IMG/VR virus record: IMGVR_UViG_3300027805_000027
Coordinates: 1-41,875 of that record
Source: a virus
DNA: 41,875 nt
Strand: one strand, 5' to 3'
The position numbers were made by a program, and so were the translations under genes. Under the pieces are notes generated by a model. That model was not told the origin of the DNA and searched no databases. It was given only the letters and a program-made list of their open reading frames with translations. Positions 10,694-40,710 of this stretch are shown piece by piece (position 1 is the stretch's first letter; each line of letters begins with the position of its first letter).

Positions 10694-12268
10694 TTATCTG
10701 GAAAAGAACGGGTTCTCAGAAACTGTTACTACAGGCATTGTATCAGCAAATGACATAGAACATGCTATTGCTAAACTATCTGGGTAGTCATCGAAAGCCC
10801 CCTTCTCATCCGGGGCGGCAGCTAAAAGATACGGGCCCCGATATACCTTTTCAAGGTCCAGCATCTGTTGATTAAAGCGTTTCCAGGTACGTACTCGTCG
10901 TGCCTTGGAATGACCAGGAATAATCAATTGACCACGCTGAATCAATTCTGTTAGGTGTACCCAGCGCTCATTCTGAGTCTTGGCATCTGAGGAGACAGAA
11001 GTGACTTCAATCTGGGGAAGGAGGACCTGGAGACGTTCTGCCACTGCCCCACCAACACCCTGGGCATCCACCCCAATACGGTACACATCATAGTTTCGTA
11101 GGAAGTCAATGATCTCAAAGTACTGGGATTCCCATTCCTCGTTATTGATTTCTAGCCAGTTCAGGACTCTGTGTTCGTAGAAACCAAAGCCATCAGGATG
11201 ATCCCAATCCACCCACACAACCGTCACAACTGTAGAGTCATTGGAGCGGGCTACGTCGATACCGACTACGACTGGGGTACGCCACCATTGTTTAACCAGG
11301 GCCATAGAGGGGTCATACAGACTGGATAGGCGGTCGTCAGTTACAAACATTCCTTTTTCCAGAATCCACTTGTTGCAGTAGGACATCTGGAACTCATCAG
11401 AGTCTTCTCCGATGCGAACCTTTTCTTTGGAGATGAATTTAGAGTAGTTCTCGTTGTACTTTGCCGCAGTCCTCCAGTCGTACTCAAAATGAGTCTGACG
11501 GTGACTACGCTTTCCGTTTACGTCTCGTCTCCTATTGAACTGAATCATCTTGTAGAAGTAGGACTTGTTCCTGGTGGCCGTTCCAGTAAGAGCAATAGAT
11601 CCGTTATTGAACGCCAACATGGGCTTGATCGACTTGGTGATCATGAACTCGTCAGCCTCTTGGGCCTCGTCAATCATGACAAAGTGGTAGGTTTTGGATT
11701 CAATCTTGGCCTTAGGGTTACAGGTTTGCATCCGGCAAAGGGAGCCGGAGTGCTTTAGGCTGATGATCTTTCCCTTACCACGGGAGCCACCAGATGATGC
11801 CTTGTCATCAATCTCTGGATCTAACAGGAAATCCATAGCGTGCTCACTGGTCAACTTGTTTACGACACGGCTGAATACTGTGTCAGCCTGATCCTCCGTT
11901 GGGGCAAAAACCCCACACCAGAAACCATTCTCAAATTTGCCCAACCAGGTGGGATACACCTTAGCCAGCTTAGGAAGGATGACCATCAACGAAGCAATGA
12001 CGTTAGACAGGACTTCAGATTTACCTGACTGGCGAGTCGCCACGACAGTCATTTCTTCACCATCTCCAATGACAATGGATTGAATCAGCCGGTAGGCGAT
12101 TGGAACCTGGTATGGGAACAGGGTGACATTGCAGAACTCTTCCAGGAAGAGAATTAGTTTTAGTACTAGCTGATCAATAAACTCGGCAGAGGTCTCGTCA
12201 AGTTCTTCTTGCATCTCTTCTGCAAGAAGGCCTTCATCTTCTACGACATCCTCTAATACTTGATCCAT
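10694..12268 (-). CDS. terL: Terminase large subunit
   Basis: A 524-residue packaging motor. ATPase part: Walker A A-T-R-Q-S-G-K-S at about 77-84, Walker B H-F-V-M-I-D-E-A-Q at about 195-203, and coupling motif A-L-T-G-T-A-T at about 226-232. The RNase H-like nuclease part has V-V-G-I-D-V-A-R (about 334-341), R-I-G-V-D-A-Q-G (about 398-404) and the late acidic F-D-D-Y-P-D-S-L-A. It cuts concatemers and pumps DNA through the portal at 4.0-5.7 kb. The start follows the preceding stop by about 13 bases without a clear ribosome-binding site, suggesting coupled translation. Confidence 0.95.
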   Translation of the reverse strand: MDQVLEDVVEDEGLLAEEMQEELDETSAEFIDQLVLKLILFLEEFCNVTLFPYQVPIAYRLIQSIVIGDGEEMTVVATRQSGKSEVLSNVIASLMVILPKLAKVYPTWLGKFENGFWCGVFAPTEDQADTVFSRVVNKLTSEHAMDFLLDPEIDDKASSGGSRGKGKIISLKHSGSLCRMQTCNPKAKIESKTYHFVMIDEAQEADEFMITKSIKPMLAFNNGSIALTGTATRNKSYFYKMIQFNRRRDVNGKRSHRQTHFEYDWRTAAKYNENYSKFISKEKVRIGEDSDEFQMSYCNKWILEKGMFVTDDRLSSLYDPSMALVKQWWRTPVVVGIDVARSNDSTVVTVVWVDWDHPDGFGFYEHRVLNWLEINNEEWESQYFEIIDFLRNYDVYRIGVDAQGVGGAVAERLQVLLPQIEVTSVSSDAKTQNERWVHLTELIQRGQLIIPGHSKARRVRTWKRFNQQMLDLEKVYRGPYLLAAAPDEKGAFDDYPDSLAIACSMSFADTMPVVTVSENPFFSR

Positions 12269-12515: not shown

Positions 12516-12862
12516 TGCCACTCTCCAATTTCAGTAATGGGAGTATCAAGTATACGGCCTTTTACAGCATAAAGTAAACCAGACTGGTCATCAAGGCCTC
12601 TTGGTTTACGGCATACACCAAACTGGTATATGTATTTACATACCCGTACCTGTACTCCCCATCCTGTTTTCCATGGGTGGGAGGTCTGCCTCATGAACCC
12701 AAAGGATAAGGAAACCGGGAACCTCTTAGTTTGATCCGAGTCCCTAACAATCCAATAGATCGGTCCTGCTATCCAGACTGTATTGAGATGTTTATAGCCT
12801 GTTGATATTGTGACCATAGTCACAATAGCTACAGTGCTTACACAAATTGATACCCATATCAT
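12512..12862 (-). CDS. Hypothetical membrane-anchored protein
   Basis: A 116-residue protein. Residues 1-22 form a hydrophobic segment (M-I-W-V-S-I-C-V-S-T-V-A-I-V-T-M-V) and residues 29-38 add an I-A-G-P-I-Y-W-I-V stretch, so it is likely anchored in the membrane with its C-terminus in the cytoplasm or virion. The rest is mixed, with several aromatic and Cys residues. It is translationally coupled to the next gene through ATGA. No family is recognised, and its place between the fibre module and terminase gives no clear role. Confidence 0.6.
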   Translation of the reverse strand: MIWVSICVSTVAIVTMVTISTGYKHLNTVWIAGPIYWIVRDSDQTKRFPVSLSFGFMRQTSHPWKTGWGVQVRVCKYIYQFGVCRKPRGLDDQSGLLYAVKGRILDTPITEIGEWQ

Positions 12863-13438: not shown

Positions 13439-14716
13439 TTAGGCTACTTCGTAAGTTACGGTAAACGAAATAACGTCGTTAGTCTGCACATCAAAGTAAA
13501 AATCGTAGTTGTACCGGCTGTAATACCACCAATAACGCCATCCACCCCAAGGAATGACTACCCCGTTGCGGTAAATAGCAGTCGTAGAACCACCGTACCA
13601 CCAGCGGAAATAACGTTCTTCATCACTCTGGTGTAAGAATGATCCAATTGCGATCTTGTCTCCAGACTGCAAATTTGCAGCAAACACCGGTACTAAGGGA
13701 AGATCAAACGATACGTTTGTATTAAGTCTACTAGGGGTGTCCTTAACACGAATAGCTGTATGCACTTGACACGTATTATTTAATTTCATGTATTTGGAAT
13801 AAATAATATCCCATTGAGAAGTAGTGAGACCACTAACAGTAGGTGTCCATGATTGCCATACCCCAATACCTTCAGACCCAGCCGTGTTGCTCAATTTACT
13901 GACGGTGATGGATCTATCTGTGTAATTTCCAGATACAGTTTTAATGGCAGTTGGCAAGTTCCCGGTATTTAGTTTTGTTAAATCAATACCAGCCGAAGCA
14001 CTTATGTCGTCATTAACAATTGTGCCGTTTGCAATCTTTGCCGATGTAATAATGTTATCTGCAAATTTTGACCCTGTAATAGCAAGGTCTGCGATTTTGT
14101 CAGTAGTGACAGAACTCGTAGCTAACTTATCTGTGGTTACTGCTCCGTTGTTAATCTTTGATGTAACAACTGAGTTGCTTGCTAACTTTGTATCTGTAAC
14201 AGCTCCGTTTATTATCTTCTCGGTGCTGATTGACAAATCACGTATTTTTGATGTGCTAACACTTGTGTCTAATATTTTACTTTCGGTGATAGCGTTGTTC
14301 TCAATAGCTGTGCTTTTCACTTTTCCATATGAAAGCCCATTTACTGAAGTTGAAGTTACTTGTAGAACATCGAAGTCAGTTGAGCCTACCGGAAGCAACG
14401 ACGGCTCATTATTAGCAGTAGCCGTAAGAAGGTCACCTCGGTTATTGAAAACCGTACCGGTTAGGACAGCAGAATCCAGGGACAAGGTAACTTCCCCATT
14501 AGAACCGCCTCCTGTCAAACCACCACCAGCTATAACACTGGTAATTGTCCCCTGAGCGTAATACGGGAAACTAACATCGTTCCATCGTTTATCTCCTGTA
14601 CCGATCTTGAACTTTCTGGTGTCTGTCTCAAACCCAACCTCACCAACGGCGAGGATTGGATTTGTACTAAACCATTCAGCGGCGGTACCACGTCTAAATT
14701 GAATCCTAACTGCCAT
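13439..14716 (-). CDS. Tail fibre with Mtd-N-type domain
   Basis: A 425-residue fibre. Residues 1-50 (V-R-I-Q-F-R-R-G-T-A-A-E-W then L-A-V-G-E-V-G-F-E-T-D-T-R-K-F-K-I-G-T-G) match the N-terminal attachment domain seen in Bordetella phage Mtd and many tail fibres. Residues about 130-280 are a repeated I-x-x-x-A-I-T-x-x-K-I shaft, built like a trimeric beta-structured stalk. The C-terminal 150 residues are rich in Trp/Tyr (G-G-W-R-Y-W-W-Y-Y-S-R-Y) and probably bind the receptor. The ATG has an AGGAG site. No reverse transcriptase or template repeat is seen nearby, so diversification is not supported. Confidence 0.85.
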   Translation of the reverse strand: MAVRIQFRRGTAAEWFSTNPILAVGEVGFETDTRKFKIGTGDKRWNDVSFPYYAQGTITSVIAGGGLTGGGSNGEVTLSLDSAVLTGTVFNNRGDLLTATANNEPSLLPVGSTDFDVLQVTSTSVNGLSYGKVKSTAIENNAITESKILDTSVSTSKIRDLSISTEKIINGAVTDTKLASNSVVTSKINNGAVTTDKLATSSVTTDKIADLAITGSKFADNIITSAKIANGTIVNDDISASAGIDLTKLNTGNLPTAIKTVSGNYTDRSITVSKLSNTAGSEGIGVWQSWTPTVSGLTTSQWDIIYSKYMKLNNTCQVHTAIRVKDTPSRLNTNVSFDLPLVPVFAANLQSGDKIAIGSFLHQSDEERYFRWWYGGSTTAIYRNGVVIPWGGWRYWWYYSRYNYDFYFDVQTNDVISFTVTYEVA

Positions 14717-14728
14717 ATTCTTCTCCTA

Positions 14729-15568
14729 TCAGCCAAACATCTTTTTCCATGTTACAGGACCAACTACTCCGTCCGCTAACAAACCATTCCGGGACTGCCA
14801 ATCTTTTACCCTCCGCTCAGTGACAGAGCTAAAGTCCCCGTCTGGGGTTGCCCCAACCACGGCCTGTACTAACTTTACGGTATCCCCTTTTGACCCCATC
14901 CGTATGGGTGTCCCTGGGTACGCAAAGACTAACGCTGGTCCAGACGTGTCAATTGGTGAAACCCCATTCTTTTCGTAGAGTTGCGTAGCAATCGGGATGT
15001 TGTCTCCGGCTACGTACCTCCAATGCCACGGCTCACTTTGTAGTTCTGCGGAGATACCATAGCGGTGTGCGTTACCTATTAACCACCTAACAAACCCCTC
15101 TCGTATGGGGTCAGGGGCGGTATCGTTATCGTATTCTTCAGCAATGTCGAGAGCAAGACCCCAACCGTGGTTAGATTGGCCCGGCGTAGCGGCAGTTGCT
15201 GGGTACCTCCCATTTATTAGTTTCTTTACCCAGTACATAGAGGGGTATCCGTGCTGTATGGCCTTATCCCATACCTTACGCCGGGTAGACGGGGTACCAT
15301 CGTAAATAGATTTGTTAACTGGATCATACCGTGATACAAATAGATTCTTTTGCGCTTCAAAGGACCGGTAGTCACCTACGTGTTTAATAACAAACCCTTG
15401 CGTACGTGCTTCCGCAAACATCGCCATGAATGAACGAGCAGCGGTCTTCTCCATACGTGCACTACCTACACCAATCGTTGTTAGAGAAGAATCGGGAAGT
15501 TTGCCGTTTTCTTTACCGCTTAGGGACGATGGTTTTATCATAGGGGATATAGGAAGAGTGTATGACAT
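14729..15568 (-). CDS. Endolysin: VanY-type peptidase plus peptidoglycan-binding domain
   Basis: A 279-residue lysis enzyme. The VanY/D-Ala-D-Ala carboxypeptidase zinc site is visible as S-N-H-G-W-G-L-A-L-D-I (His about 134, Asp about 141) and E-P-W-H-W-R-Y (His about 182). The C-terminal 55 residues (G-S-K-G-D-T-V-K-L-V-Q-A-V to G-V-V-G-P-V-T-W-K-K-M-F-G) form a PG_binding_1 domain. I chose ATG 15568, nine bases after a perfect AGGAGG, over the TTG two codons upstream. It has its own upstream promoter-like element and is flanked by fibre genes, 15 kb from the holin-like genes. It probably cleaves stem peptides in the cell wall. Confidence 0.88.
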   Translation of the reverse strand: MSYTLPISPMIKPSSLSGKENGKLPDSSLTTIGVGSARMEKTAARSFMAMFAEARTQGFVIKHVGDYRSFEAQKNLFVSRYDPVNKSIYDGTPSTRRKVWDKAIQHGYPSMYWVKKLINGRYPATAATPGQSNHGWGLALDIAEEYDNDTAPDPIREGFVRWLIGNAHRYGISAELQSEPWHWRYVAGDNIPIATQLYEKNGVSPIDTSGPALVFAYPGTPIRMGSKGDTVKLVQAVVGATPDGDFSSVTERRVKDWQSRNGLLADGVVGPVTWKKMFG

Positions 15569-34828: not shown

Positions 34829-34911
34829 GCCCGAGTGGCGGAATGGCAGACGCAGGGGACTTAAAATCCCTGTCCCGCAAGGGAGTGCGGGTTCGACTCC
34901 CGCCTCGGGTA
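34829..34911 (+). tRNA. tRNA-Leu (anticodon UAA)
   Basis: Acceptor arms GCCCGAG and CTCGGGT (one G-U) with discriminator A. The anticodon stem-loop is AGGGA-CTTAAAA-TCCCT, giving UAA. A long variable arm (type II) and the T-arm GCGGG-TTCGACT-CCCGC support leucine. No CCA is encoded. It is on the plus strand, opposite to the surrounding genes. UUA is rare in GC-rich actinobacterial hosts, so it probably helps translate the AT-richer phage genes. Confidence 0.93.
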
Positions 34912-34921
34912 CATATAACAG

Positions 34922-34993
34922 GCCCCTGTCGTCTACTGGTTAGGACCGCACTCTTATAAGGTGCTTAAGGTGGTTCAATTCCACCCAGGGGTA
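34922..34993 (+). tRNA. tRNA-Ile (anticodon UAU)
   Basis: Acceptor arms GCCCCTG and CAGGGGT (one G-U) with discriminator A; anticodon stem-loop GCACT-CTTATAA-GGTGC gives UAU, reading the rare AUA isoleucine codon; T-arm GGTGG-TTCAATT-CCACC. No encoded CCA. It follows tRNA-Leu by 10 bases. A UAU anticodon reads AUA directly without the lysidine modification needed by CAU isoleucine tRNAs. Confidence 0.9.
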
Positions 34994-34997
34994 CTAC

Positions 34998-38145: not shown

Positions 38146-38173
38146 ATTGTACAACCTGGACTAGGGCTACTGG
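38146..38173 (-). promoter_or_regulatory. Leaderless promoter, conserved copy
   Basis: On the minus strand TAGCCCTAG is followed by TCCAGGTTG and TACAAT (38146-38151), which ends 6 bases before the ATG at 38139. About 30 of 33 bases match the promoter at 38683-38710. Part of it overlaps the 3' end of the upstream ART-like gene. Confidence 0.65.
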
Positions 38174-38676
38174 GGTCGTTTCACTCTGAACTGTTCAAGG
38201 TTTATGTAGTTAATATGGTTCTTAGGATGATCAATGCCTATGTACTCAGGTACGGTTACACCAAGACCATGTAACTCATCACGGTTAGTAACTCGGAGAC
38301 GTGCTCCAGGACGTACATGGTATTCCTGCTCTTCGTCACGAACGATTTTTACTAATTCATCATCACGAGGGTCTTTGTGTCGAAGACTAAGTCTAGGAAT
38401 GATTTGGTTCTCTGGATCTTCAATCTCTGCGGCAATAATAGGGCGTCGTTCAACACTGGCGAATCTCGCAGCGACACGAGGTCTAGTAGTCCAATGAATA
38501 CCTGTGTTGTGGGGAAGCATATCCCACTCGGGCAGTTCAACACCGTGGTAAATAGCCGTACCTGGTTTAGGAAGCTCACCCTGCTTTGGTGGCCCAAAGT
38601 GGCCACTATCGTCGTCTTCGTACTTAAGGATGTGTTCTTCCCATTTAGATTCATCAAACTGGGGACCAAGTGCCAT
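38167..38676 (-). CDS. ADP-ribosyltransferase-like protein, R/H-S/T-E type
   Basis: A 169-residue protein with the full ART motif order: T-A-I-Y-H-G-V-E-L (His 44), G-I-H-W-T-T-R-P-R-V-A-A-R-F-A (T63-T64), and D-E-E-Q-E-Y-H-V-R-P-G-A-R-L-R-V (E116-Q-E118). The third motif, E-x-E followed by P-G-x-x-x-R-V, is very typical of arginine-targeting ARTs and of VIP2-like toxins. Residues 1-35 are a charged extension. It is a single-gene transcript behind a leaderless promoter, facing the origin-like region. It probably modifies a host target early; the target is unknown. Confidence 0.8.
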   Translation of the reverse strand: MALGPQFDESKWEEHILKYEDDDSGHFGPPKQGELPKPGTAIYHGVELPEWDMLPHNTGIHWTTRPRVAARFASVERRPIIAAEIEDPENQIIPRLSLRHKDPRDDELVKIVRDEEQEYHVRPGARLRVTNRDELHGLGVTVPEYIGIDHPKNHINYINLEQFRVKRPQ

Positions 38677-38682
38677 ACAACC

Positions 38683-38710
38683 ATTGTACAGCCTGAACTA
38701 GGGCTATTGG
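38683..38710 (-). promoter_or_regulatory. Leaderless promoter, conserved copy
   Basis: On the minus strand TAGCCCTAG is followed by TTCAGGCTG and TACAAT (38683-38688), ending 6 bases before the ATG at 38676. The block matches the promoter at 38146-38173, with changes only at single positions. A second ATAGCCCTA lies further upstream. Confidence 0.65.
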
Positions 38711-38791
38711 GGCCGATTTTCTAGTGCCCCCATTTCGCAAATAGGGCTATCTATGGAGTAGTTGATCAGTGGGGTGTCGGCCCTACCCACC

Positions 38792-39171
38792 TTGTCCACA
38801 GCCCCTGTGGATAAAGGGTGGGGGGTGTGGATAACCCTGTGGACAGCTGGGGATAACCCTGTGGATAACACTGTGACAAATGTCACATCTGTGGATGGCA
38901 CTGTGGATAACTCCGTGTCAATATGACATGTGTCACAGTGACCGTGACATTGGTCACACCAGACCCTGTGGATATCCCTCTCTCTGTGGATAAAGCTGTG
39001 GATAAGTGCCGATTTGGGCCGTTTTCTGTGGATAACGCCGTTAGCCCCCCTGTGGATAACTTTCAGGAAAGTGCCATCTACCAGGGCTTTTGTAAAACCC
39101 CTGTTGTTTTCACGTTTTTCGGCCCATTTTGACACGTTTCCCCTGGTCAGAGGGCATAAATGTTATCCACA
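38792..39171. other. Origin-like array of DnaA boxes
   Basis: The exact DnaA box TTATCCACA (TGTGGATAA on the other strand) occurs nine times in about 370 bases: 38806, 38826, 38860, 38902, 38985, 38997, 39027, 39051 (all in one orientation) and 39163 (opposite). There is also one TTGTCCACA (38792-38800), the form preferred by actinobacterial DnaA, plus variants at 38848, 38890 and 38967. GTGAC/GTCAC palindromes are interleaved and an AT-richer stretch follows at 39100-39165. The density is that of a bacterial oriC. I infer a phage replication origin opened by host DnaA, or a DnaA sink. The long minus-strand frame through it is made of box translations and is not coding. Confidence 0.82.
38872..38957. 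promoter_or_regulatory. Cluster of GTGAC/GTCAC palindromes between DnaA boxes
   Basis: TGTGACA-AA-TGTCACA (38872-38887), TGTCA-ATA-TGACA (38916-38928), TGACA-TG-TGTCA (38924-38935) and GTGAC-ATTG-GTCAC (38944-38957). The same half-site recurs at 39279-39294 and 39550-39563 and, inverted, before right-arm genes. These are candidate binding sites for a phage or host regulator acting at the origin. Confidence 0.6.
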
Positions 39172-39278
39172 AGCAACTGTGGAAACTCGATATGGGCGGG
39201 GTACGGCCCGAATATGACTCGTAGTGCCATATCCAGGCCAAACGGCTCAGAGAGCGTTTTAGGCACCAATCAGGGCAA

Positions 39279-39294
39279 TGTGACATTAGTCACA
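39279..39294. promoter_or_regulatory. GTGAC-type palindrome
   Basis: TGTGAC-ATTA-GTCACA, a perfect 6-base arm palindrome with a 4-base centre, very similar to the one at 38944-38957 (GTGAC-ATTG-GTCAC). Confidence 0.5.
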
Positions 39295-39356
39295 CTCCCA
39301 GCCTAGGAATGGGCCTATGGTGTGACCAATGGCACATATGCGGGGATAAGGGTAGA

Positions 39357-39408
39357 TATTTGTACGGTACAACTATCCCGGTAGCAACTATTTGTACGGT
39401 ACAACTAT
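39357..39408. repeat. Two iteron-like repeats with a TTGTACGGTACAA palindrome
   Basis: A 20-base sequence containing TTGTACGGTACAA is repeated exactly at 39357-39376 and 39389-39408. The period is 32 bases, and each unit ends in GCAAC. The core is a perfect palindrome (TTGTAC-G-GTACAA), so each copy could bind a dimer. It may be an operator pair or replication iterons; the TGTAC core also occurs in nearby -10 boxes. Confidence 0.7.
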
Positions 39409-39549
39409 TGTGATCGCAACTACTCCACTCACGGCATACCCCTATGGGTACCCATACCCCATATCTCCCCCATACGTATATATGTAAAAGGGGAATACTT
39501 GTACCCTACAAGTATCTCGTCCTGTATATATAACGTGTGGGCCGAAAAC

Positions 39550-39563
39550 GTGACCCCGGTCAC
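39550..39563. promoter_or_regulatory. GTGACC-CC-GGTCAC palindrome
   Basis: A perfect 6-base arm palindrome of the GTGAC family, located 5 bases before the first parS-like site. Confidence 0.45.
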
Positions 39564-39568
39564 ACTAT

Positions 39569-39582
39569 GTTCCACGTGGAAC
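39569..39582. promoter_or_regulatory. parS-like palindrome 1
   Basis: GTTCCACGTGGAAC, differing from the bacterial chromosomal parS core (GTTTCACGTGAAAC) by one symmetric change. It is flanked by T on the left and G on the right. It lies 10 bases from copy 2 on the same stretch. Confidence 0.65.
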
Positions 39583-39592
39583 GTCCGTGAAT

Positions 39593-39606
39593 GTTCCACG
39601 TGGAAC
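39593..39606. promoter_or_regulatory. parS-like palindrome 2
   Basis: GTTCCACGTGGAAC again, exact, 24 bases centre to centre from copy 1. The two have the same flanks (ATGTT...AACGTC). Confidence 0.65.
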
Positions 39607-39912
39607 GTCACGAGATTTGACACGGCATGTACCTTGGGTCTTGTGAAGGACGGGAGACAGTGTTCGCCCCGTCCTGACTGTGAATGCGTACCGCCTGCGG
39701 TCACTACCTAGTCATCCGAGAGACAACGGATAAGGGGAACGGCCCAAGGATTACGGGGCGCATTCAATGTGTCCGTGAATAGCACTTGCTGGGTCATCAG
39801 CGTCTGGGGTGTGGTCTTACACACTGCTACCCAGGGTGCCGGTCCTTGTGTCCGTCATCAGTACGTCTGCCAGTGCGAACACCGCCTAACCATTCTCAGG
39901 GTGGGCCGGTGA

Positions 39913-39930
39913 ATGTTCCACGTGGAACAT
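39913..39930. promoter_or_regulatory. parS-like palindrome 3
   Basis: ATGTTCCACGTGGAACAT, an 18-base perfect palindrome extending two more bases on each side and flanked by GGCC on both sides. It lies 310 bases from copies 1 and 2. It could bind a ParB protein; no parA/parB gene is in this window. Confidence 0.68.
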
Positions 39931-39937
39931 TCTGGCC

Positions 39938-39979
39938 GGAGCGCACTTGCTCCTGTGGGGTTCGATTCCCCACTCATCC
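39938..39979 (+). other. tRNA 3'-end-like segment, possible attP
   Basis: GGAGC-GCACTT-GCTCC makes a perfect hairpin like a long variable arm, followed by a perfect T-arm, TGGGG-TTCGATT-CCCCA, and seven bases CTCATCC where an acceptor strand would be. No matching 5' half (GGATGAG) is found nearby, so it is not a full tRNA. Phage attachment sites often copy the 3' end of a host tRNA gene, which would fit, but no integrase is present in this window. Confidence 0.35.
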
Positions 39980-39982
39980 TCT

Positions 39983-40003
39983 GATGCGTCACCGTGACGC
40001 ATC
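39983..40003. promoter_or_regulatory. GCGTCAC-type palindrome before the first right-arm gene
   Basis: GATGCGTCAC-C-GTGACGCATC, ten-base perfect arms. Copies with eight-base arms occur at 40754 and 41438. It may be an operator; the hairpin lacks a T-run. It lies 33 bases before the ATG at 40036. Confidence 0.6.
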
Positions 40004-40035
40004 TACTTCAACCAACCAACAGAAAGGCATTTGCC

Positions 40036-40710
40036 ATGAACAACGTCCATGAAAACCCAAACACTGACGGCGTGCTGTCCGTCATTGACCGTCACTGCTC
40101 CCTCGCTGAGCAGGCCATCGTCCAGGCCAACGAGAGCCTGGCTACCTTGCCCGTCATCTTCGAAGCCTTCGGTGACATCCCGAACCGTGGGCCGAAGAAC
40201 GCAGACGGTACGTATGACACGGCCTTCTGGGGCGTGAACGAAACCAGCGTTCGTCGCTACCGTCTCGTTTCATCCATCATCGAACTTGAGCGTGATGATG
40301 ACTTCGACCTGCTCGGTGTTCGTACCCTCATCGGCAACGCATTCCGTACCAAGGGTGTGGCCGTGGATGACATCCGTGATGCCATCGAAGAGTGCGATAC
40401 CGCTATCGAAGCAGTCATCGCTGTTCAGGCTCTGATTGACGGAGTCAAGGCCGAGGCCCAGGCTCAGGCCGATGCCGACGAGGCCGAGGATGCCGACGAG
40501 ACCGAGGCCGAGACCAAGAGCGCCGACGACGTACTCAAGTGGCTCAAGGCTGTGCGTGGCCCACTCGGCAAGGTGCGTGAGGCCGTGACCGCTGGTCACA
40601 CTCTCACCGAGGAGCAGGCCACCGCATTCGATGAGGTCCTCAGCCTGGTCTCGGGTATCGCATCGGCTCGGGCATTCGTCCCGGCTCAGCCGGTGGCGGT
40701 GTCCGTCTGA
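40036..40710 (+). CDS. Hypothetical acidic protein
   Basis: A 224-residue protein (MNNVHENPNTDGVLSVID...) with helical N- and C-terminal halves and an acidic Ala/Glu/Asp-rich linker at about 150-175 (A-D-A-D-E-A-E-D-A-D-E-T-E-A). ATG 40036 is preferred because GAAAGG lies upstream after the ACCAAC-rich leader. The GC content is clearly higher than in the left 38 kb, with GTC/CTC codons. It is the first gene of the right arm. Not recognised; abundant expression is plausible from the codon use. Confidence 0.75.
   Translation: MNNVHENPNTDGVLSVIDRHCSLAEQAIVQANESLATLPVIFEAFGDIPNRGPKNADGTYDTAFWGVNETSVRRYRLVSSIIELERDDDFDLLGVRTLIGNAFRTKGVAVDDIRDAIEECDTAIEAVIAVQALIDGVKAEAQAQADADEAEDADETEAETKSADDVLKWLKAVRGPLGKVREAVTAGHTLTEEQATAFDEVLSLVSGIASARAFVPAQPVAVSV

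Follow-up and report, generated by a model that had tools for sequence, protein, structure and literature searches.

The window analysed here is a record of 41,875 bases from a freshwater bacterial virus, and this 41.9-kb stretch represents a fragment, the genomes of its relatives being 90–99 kb long. It encodes the late block of a tailed phage, with terminase, an SPP1-type portal, capsid and tail proteins. We used the terminase large subunit (10694–12268, minus strand) as the query to find relatives, which reach 93% identity in this protein and include some contigs of 90–99 kb. Genes in the relatives were called with a simple ORF picker. Three of the relatives (G014, G015 and G041) have terminal direct repeats, as expected of complete assemblies.

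A non-coding divergent junction of 1,359 bp (38677–40035), within which no supported gene was found, separates the leftward block of late genes from the rightward block of early genes. On its left side lies the first late-side gene (38167–38676, minus strand, 169 aa) and on its right side the first early gene (40036–40710, plus strand, 224 aa), neither with an assigned function. The product of the latter resembles, by eye, that of the first rightward gene of G016 (14232–14873). The cluster of DnaA boxes described below is located between these two genes, which agrees with its placement at the divergent junction of the gene blocks in the first-pass annotation. Elsewhere in the record, genes for tRNA-Leu(taa) and tRNA-Ile(tat) are found on the plus strand inside the leftward block (34829–34994); a phage-encoded integrase was looked for and none was found.

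Among named phages, those of Streptomyces come closest, BRock and GiJojo being examples (about 53% identity in the portal). BRock (Borockvirus) also resembles the lineage in its terminase (46%) and in its overall genome plan, but it presents no DnaA-box array, and no close DNA relative of the junction was found among named phages. Since the relative G014 encodes WhiB, an actinobacterial marker, the hosts are probably aquatic Actinobacteria. The terminase has one match only in genome collections (L272, 75%); the contig that carries it was assigned to a Chloroflexi MAG, which may reflect a binning error or a different host. No IMG/VR relatives were found for the two junction-flanking proteins or for one nearby late protein.

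Nine consensus DnaA boxes at the junction

The array spans 380 bp (38792–39171) and contains, over both strands, nine exact copies of TTATCCACA and three boxes with one mismatch. Eight of the exact copies are on the minus strand, starting at 38806, 38826, 38860, 38902, 38985, 38997, 39027 and 39051 (block 38806–39059), while the ninth is an outlying copy in the opposite orientation (39163–39171, plus strand). The one-mismatch boxes are TTGTCCACA at 38792 on the plus strand and TTATCCCCA at 38848 and ATATCCACA at 38967 on the minus strand. These positions confirm the nine exact boxes, eight in one orientation, reported previously; the near matches noted at that time are borne out as well, and the span is corrected from 370 bases to 380 bp. 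The spacings of the eight minus-strand boxes group near one, two and three helical turns, and the boxes of the array are almost all consensus, with no graded mix.

Exact TTATCCACA does not occur outside the array in the whole 41,875-base record, and the reversed control word is present in zero copies. Dinucleotide-preserving shuffles of the 380-bp stretch (n = 5,000) gave a mean of 0.008 exact boxes and a maximum of 1, compared to the nine observed, in line with the initial estimate of far fewer than one box by chance. In an unbiased count of 9-mers over 500-bp windows, the DnaA box or a one-base shift of it is the most clustered 9-mer in the record, in G014 and in G016. Judged by these counts, the array is a genuine, selected cluster of consensus DnaA boxes. 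Misassignment of a host-chromosome oriC as virus is ruled out by the terminase, portal, capsid and tail genes in the same record.

We found no recognisable DnaA C-terminal domain in 14 records of the lineage, which makes the DnaA of the host the probable ligand. We rate it as highly probable that the array, whatever its role, is a cluster of host-DnaA-binding sites.

Conservation and probable loss of the array

Comparing the array in related phages, as had been proposed as a check, gave a divided result over a set from which the records nearest to the window may be missing. Six relatives have exact boxes at the corresponding junction (11 in G016, 6 in G014, 5 each in G015 and G026, 4 in G027 and 2 in G038, a weak cluster), but the array is missing from the near-full-length sister genomes G021 and G023, in which the junction is only about 160 bp long. 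G041 retains one box. The junction was located independently by gene order and by the motif AATAGGGCTA; it makes up 0.6–3% of each of the six array-bearing records and holds 40 of the 45 exact boxes in our record, G016, G014, G015, G026 and G027.

Mainly the boxes and short motifs align between relatives, the DNA between boxes being mostly unalignable except in the comparison of G026 with G027. Box number, orientation and exact spacing differ among the relatives: the dominant orientation is that of the record in G014 and G016 and is flipped in G015, G026 and G027. On the PolA and DnaB trees the array is scattered through one clade, and a loss is the simplest account of why the sisters G021 and G023 are without it. 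This absence shows that the array is dispensable, whatever its role.

A separate lambda-type origin module in the lineage

Array-bearing and array-free relatives have in common a replication block with RecA, PolA, primase, DnaB and a DnaC-like loader, and some of them, not all, also carry a SNF2-type helicase in this block. The loader (phrog_50, E 1e-20) is encoded near DnaB and is adjoined by an O-like initiator of 396–416 aa, which matches replication-initiation and O-like families (in G014, phrog_270 down to 4e-8 and phrog_678 at 1e-6). The model of the initiator has a predicted N-terminal winged helix (residues 16–94, pLDDT mostly 61–87) within a whole-model pTM that is low, 0.36; a Foldseek search with it returned generic winged-helix matches only, none at E < 0.001.

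The initiator gene of G016 (L221, 15035–16261, minus strand) contains palindromic repeats and an AT-rich tract. The repeats within the gene are TAGGGTCACCCATGACCCTA in G016, G021 and G023, TAGGTCACCGGTGACCTA in G015 and GTGTCACCGGTGACAC in G014. They are followed in most genomes by an AT-rich stretch of 22–35% GC, with a stretch of 25% GC inside the G016 gene; in G021 and G023 the lowest-GC point comes before the repeats.

With an initiator, internal repeats, an AT-rich tract and a loader all found in relatives, the lineage appears to have a lambda-O-type origin. The likeness to the lambda origin covers the winged-helix initiator, the palindromic repeats in its gene, the AT-rich tract and the adjacent helicase loader; the differences are that the loader of the relatives is DnaC-like and accompanied by a phage DnaB, and that the module is separate from the array. 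The distance from module to array is about 43–46 kb in G014, G015, G016 and G027, and it is 28 kb in G026, a partial record of 73 kb. Because our record ends before the replication block, the module is assigned to this phage from its relatives, and the same module is presumably carried beyond the fragment end. A lambda-type origin module has in this way been found in an actinophage-like lineage, and the premise that a phage ordinarily relies on origin proteins of its own is borne out for this lineage.

Since the lineage has its own lambda-type origin, comprising the O-like initiator, internal repeats, DnaC-like loader and DnaB, the array is probably not the main origin of the phage. A main origin driven by host DnaA, one of two roles suggested in the first-pass annotation, is weakened by the distant lambda-O-type module, by the two array-free relatives and by the want of a consistently AT-rich element of the unwinding type at the junction.

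The array could instead serve as a second, DnaA-dependent origin of the oriC type, used at some stage of infection besides the lambda-type origin, which we consider rather unlikely. Consensus boxes that are dense, phased, largely of one orientation and placed at a divergent junction would suit such an origin; it could also recruit the DnaB and the DnaC-like loader that the phage encodes, and the record offers an AT-rich stretch with a GC of 0.33 (39472–39531). This stretch is the lowest 60-bp GC of the junction in the record, comparable values being 0.28 in G027 and 0.32 in G026, but the minimum lies at 0.38–0.47 in G016, G014, G015 and G038, so that an AT-rich element is not common to all junctions. 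Also against a second origin, the lineage carries an initiator and origin repeats of its own at another locus, and the array is absent from G021 and G023 while their replication block is otherwise full. GC skew at third-position and fourfold sites is negative in nearly every bin of the leftward genes and presents no replichore switch, although this is a weak test. Compared to a bacterial oriC, the array is similar in its many consensus 9-mer boxes, their helical phasing and their intergenic position; it differs in having neither a consistently AT-rich unwinding-type element nor a dnaA gene, in the initiator and repeats present elsewhere in its lineage, and in boxes that are nearly all consensus.

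Other elements of the junction and a possible promoter switch

The junction contains several further repeated elements. The motif A(A/C)TAGGGCTAT occurs twice on the plus strand, at 38696 and 38739 (38696–38750), the copies being 43 bp apart, and the same spacing of the paired motif AATAGGGCTAT is observed in G016 (12914 and 12957) and G015 (26518 and 26561). In the form AATAGGGCTA, the motif is present in 1–3 copies at the junction, is rare elsewhere and is also found in array-free genomes. The motif AATAGGGCTAT is probably a phage promoter or operator. In the record, G016 and G014 the array begins about 50–65 bp from it; motif and boxes are interleaved in G026 and G027.

Palindromes of the type TGTGAC-N4-GTCACA, a CRP/GlxR-like consensus, lie among the boxes (38869–38961, e.g. 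38872–38887), and further copies are located at 39279–39294 in the junction and at 12809–12824 outside it. Similar sites are seen in the junctions of G014, G038 and G009. Three palindromic repeats TTGTACNNTACAA (39360, 39392 and 39499, within 39357–39527) lie past the array and ahead of the first rightward gene, and related degenerate versions occupy the equivalent position in G016 and G014. Palindromes of the form GCGTCACNGTGACGC occupy gaps upstream of and between rightward genes (39986, 40755 and 41439) and are possible operators or terminators.

Three parS-like palindromes GTTCCACGTGGAAC are also within the junction (39569–39582, 39593–39606 and 39915–39928). Each core is preceded by T, and the sites match the 16-bp parS palindrome TGTTNCACGTGNAACA when tested against it; they agree with parS of P. 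putida and P. aeruginosa, TGTTCCACGTGGAACA, or with the G-ending form of M. xanthus. The GTTCCACGTGGAAC palindromes are absent from the relatives, and no ParB was found in the 14 records of the lineage; they are possibly sites for host ParB beside those for host DnaA.

These surroundings bear on a promoter switch, in which bound DnaA would repress or activate the flanking promoters and couple phage expression to the replication state of the host. The close and sometimes interleaved arrangement of boxes and AATAGGGCTAT is consistent with it, as are the other operator-like palindromes of the junction, and the stimulation of lambda pR by DnaA counts in its favour (PMC7466680). On the other hand, G021 and G023 keep the AATAGGGCTAT motif and the same gene layout without any boxes, the flanking promoters are putative, and 9–12 boxes are many for such a switch. 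We regard a switch as the main role of the array as fairly improbable, on a par with a second origin.

A sink for host DnaA as the favoured reading

The reading that we favour, with somewhat less than even confidence, is that the array mainly acts as a sink for host DnaA. Each phage genome would supply about 9–12 strong boxes, mostly phased on one helix face, and as phage copies accumulate free host DnaA would be drawn off. The host oriC would then stop firing, leaving nucleotides and replication proteins to the phage, and DnaA occupancy may also adjust the neighbouring divergent promoters, the sink and the promoter switch being compatible. We infer DnaA binding, its titration and the effect on the host from the sequence.

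A sink is favoured because the origin module is elsewhere and the boxes are nearly all consensus, and because the boxes are kept even though their number, orientation and spacing shift. The DnaA-titrating decoy suggested at first reading would fit the data better than a main origin. Several observations count against a sink. The fixed place of the array beside AATAGGGCTAT favours regulation, since a pure sink would not need it; phased boxes in the same orientation also fit an origin; moderately AT-rich junction stretches exist in the record, G026 and G027; and nine boxes at low copy number would hardly drain DnaA.

There is precedent for titration by boxes outside origins. Clusters of non-origin DnaA boxes, such as datA of E. 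coli or those on multicopy plasmids, titrate DnaA and delay initiation, and in E. coli, plasmids carrying such boxes lead to a higher initiation mass and to derepressed dnaA (PMC5835720). The array resembles datA as a cluster of strong boxes away from the origin module, which is located from the relatives and which we infer to be the working origin. It differs in that datA combines two consensus and several misfit boxes with an essential IHF site, whereas the array has nine consensus boxes and is carried on a phage.

Phased DnaA-box clusters in other viruses

We surveyed IMG/VR for clusters in which three exact boxes are separated by at most 30 bases. At least 120 stretches with three or more exact boxes exist (L009–L128), compared to 19 for the reversed control word in a complete scan. 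Some of these arrays reach 8–11 boxes (L047, L088, L111 and L076). No plasmid carrying an array of this type was found by blastn.

In 97 distinct survey arrays, the distances between same-orientation neighbours peak at 11–12, 21–22 and 33 bp (n = 308, Rayleigh R = 0.64), corresponding to one, two and three helical turns, and the phage family itself presents the same tendency (R about 0.55, n = 19). Such phasing suggests cooperative assembly along a single helix face. An 11-bp unit duplicated in tandem may contribute to the spacing peak in the survey, but duplication alone is disfavoured because spacing classes of 12, 21 and 22 bp exist. A few of the arrays in the survey could belong to host origins on contigs wrongly classed as viral.

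The survey also bears on whether the repeats merely look like DnaA boxes and are instead bound by a phage protein or serve packaging or recombination. DnaA binding is deduced here from sequence only, and the other repeated palindromes of the junction presumably bind other proteins, both of which leave room for this explanation. Against it stand the helical phasing and the clustering of the exact consensus word in so many virus contigs, far above the reversed word, and we consider it very unlikely.

Phased arrays may be widespread, unrecognised decoys in many unrelated environmental phages, which would soak up host DnaA and block chromosome initiation while the phage uses its own origin; we put this forward as a tentative proposal that is on balance doubtful. 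A literature search for phage DnaA-box arrays acting as decoys found no paper, with most subscription journals outside its reach. If the arrays are sinks, they would give phages a nucleic-acid rather than a protein means to stop host chromosome replication and would put the idea of initiator titration to a natural test. Should they be origins, there would be phages that possess an initiator and use that of the host as well. Either way, at least 120 environmental virus contigs bear helically phased box clusters.

Isolated phages also contain three or more exact boxes within about 100 bp: three in the Arthrobacter phages Seahorse (L295, 2513–2556) and Tiff81 (L296), three in Lactococcus phage AM4 (L297, 1501–1543) and four in Pseudoalteromonas phage H101 (L298, 1427–1521). 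Their clusters differ from the array in having fewer boxes, in belonging to unrelated phages and in their positions, those of Seahorse and Tiff81 being at the end of an HNH gene. All four phages are culturable and hence useful for experiments.
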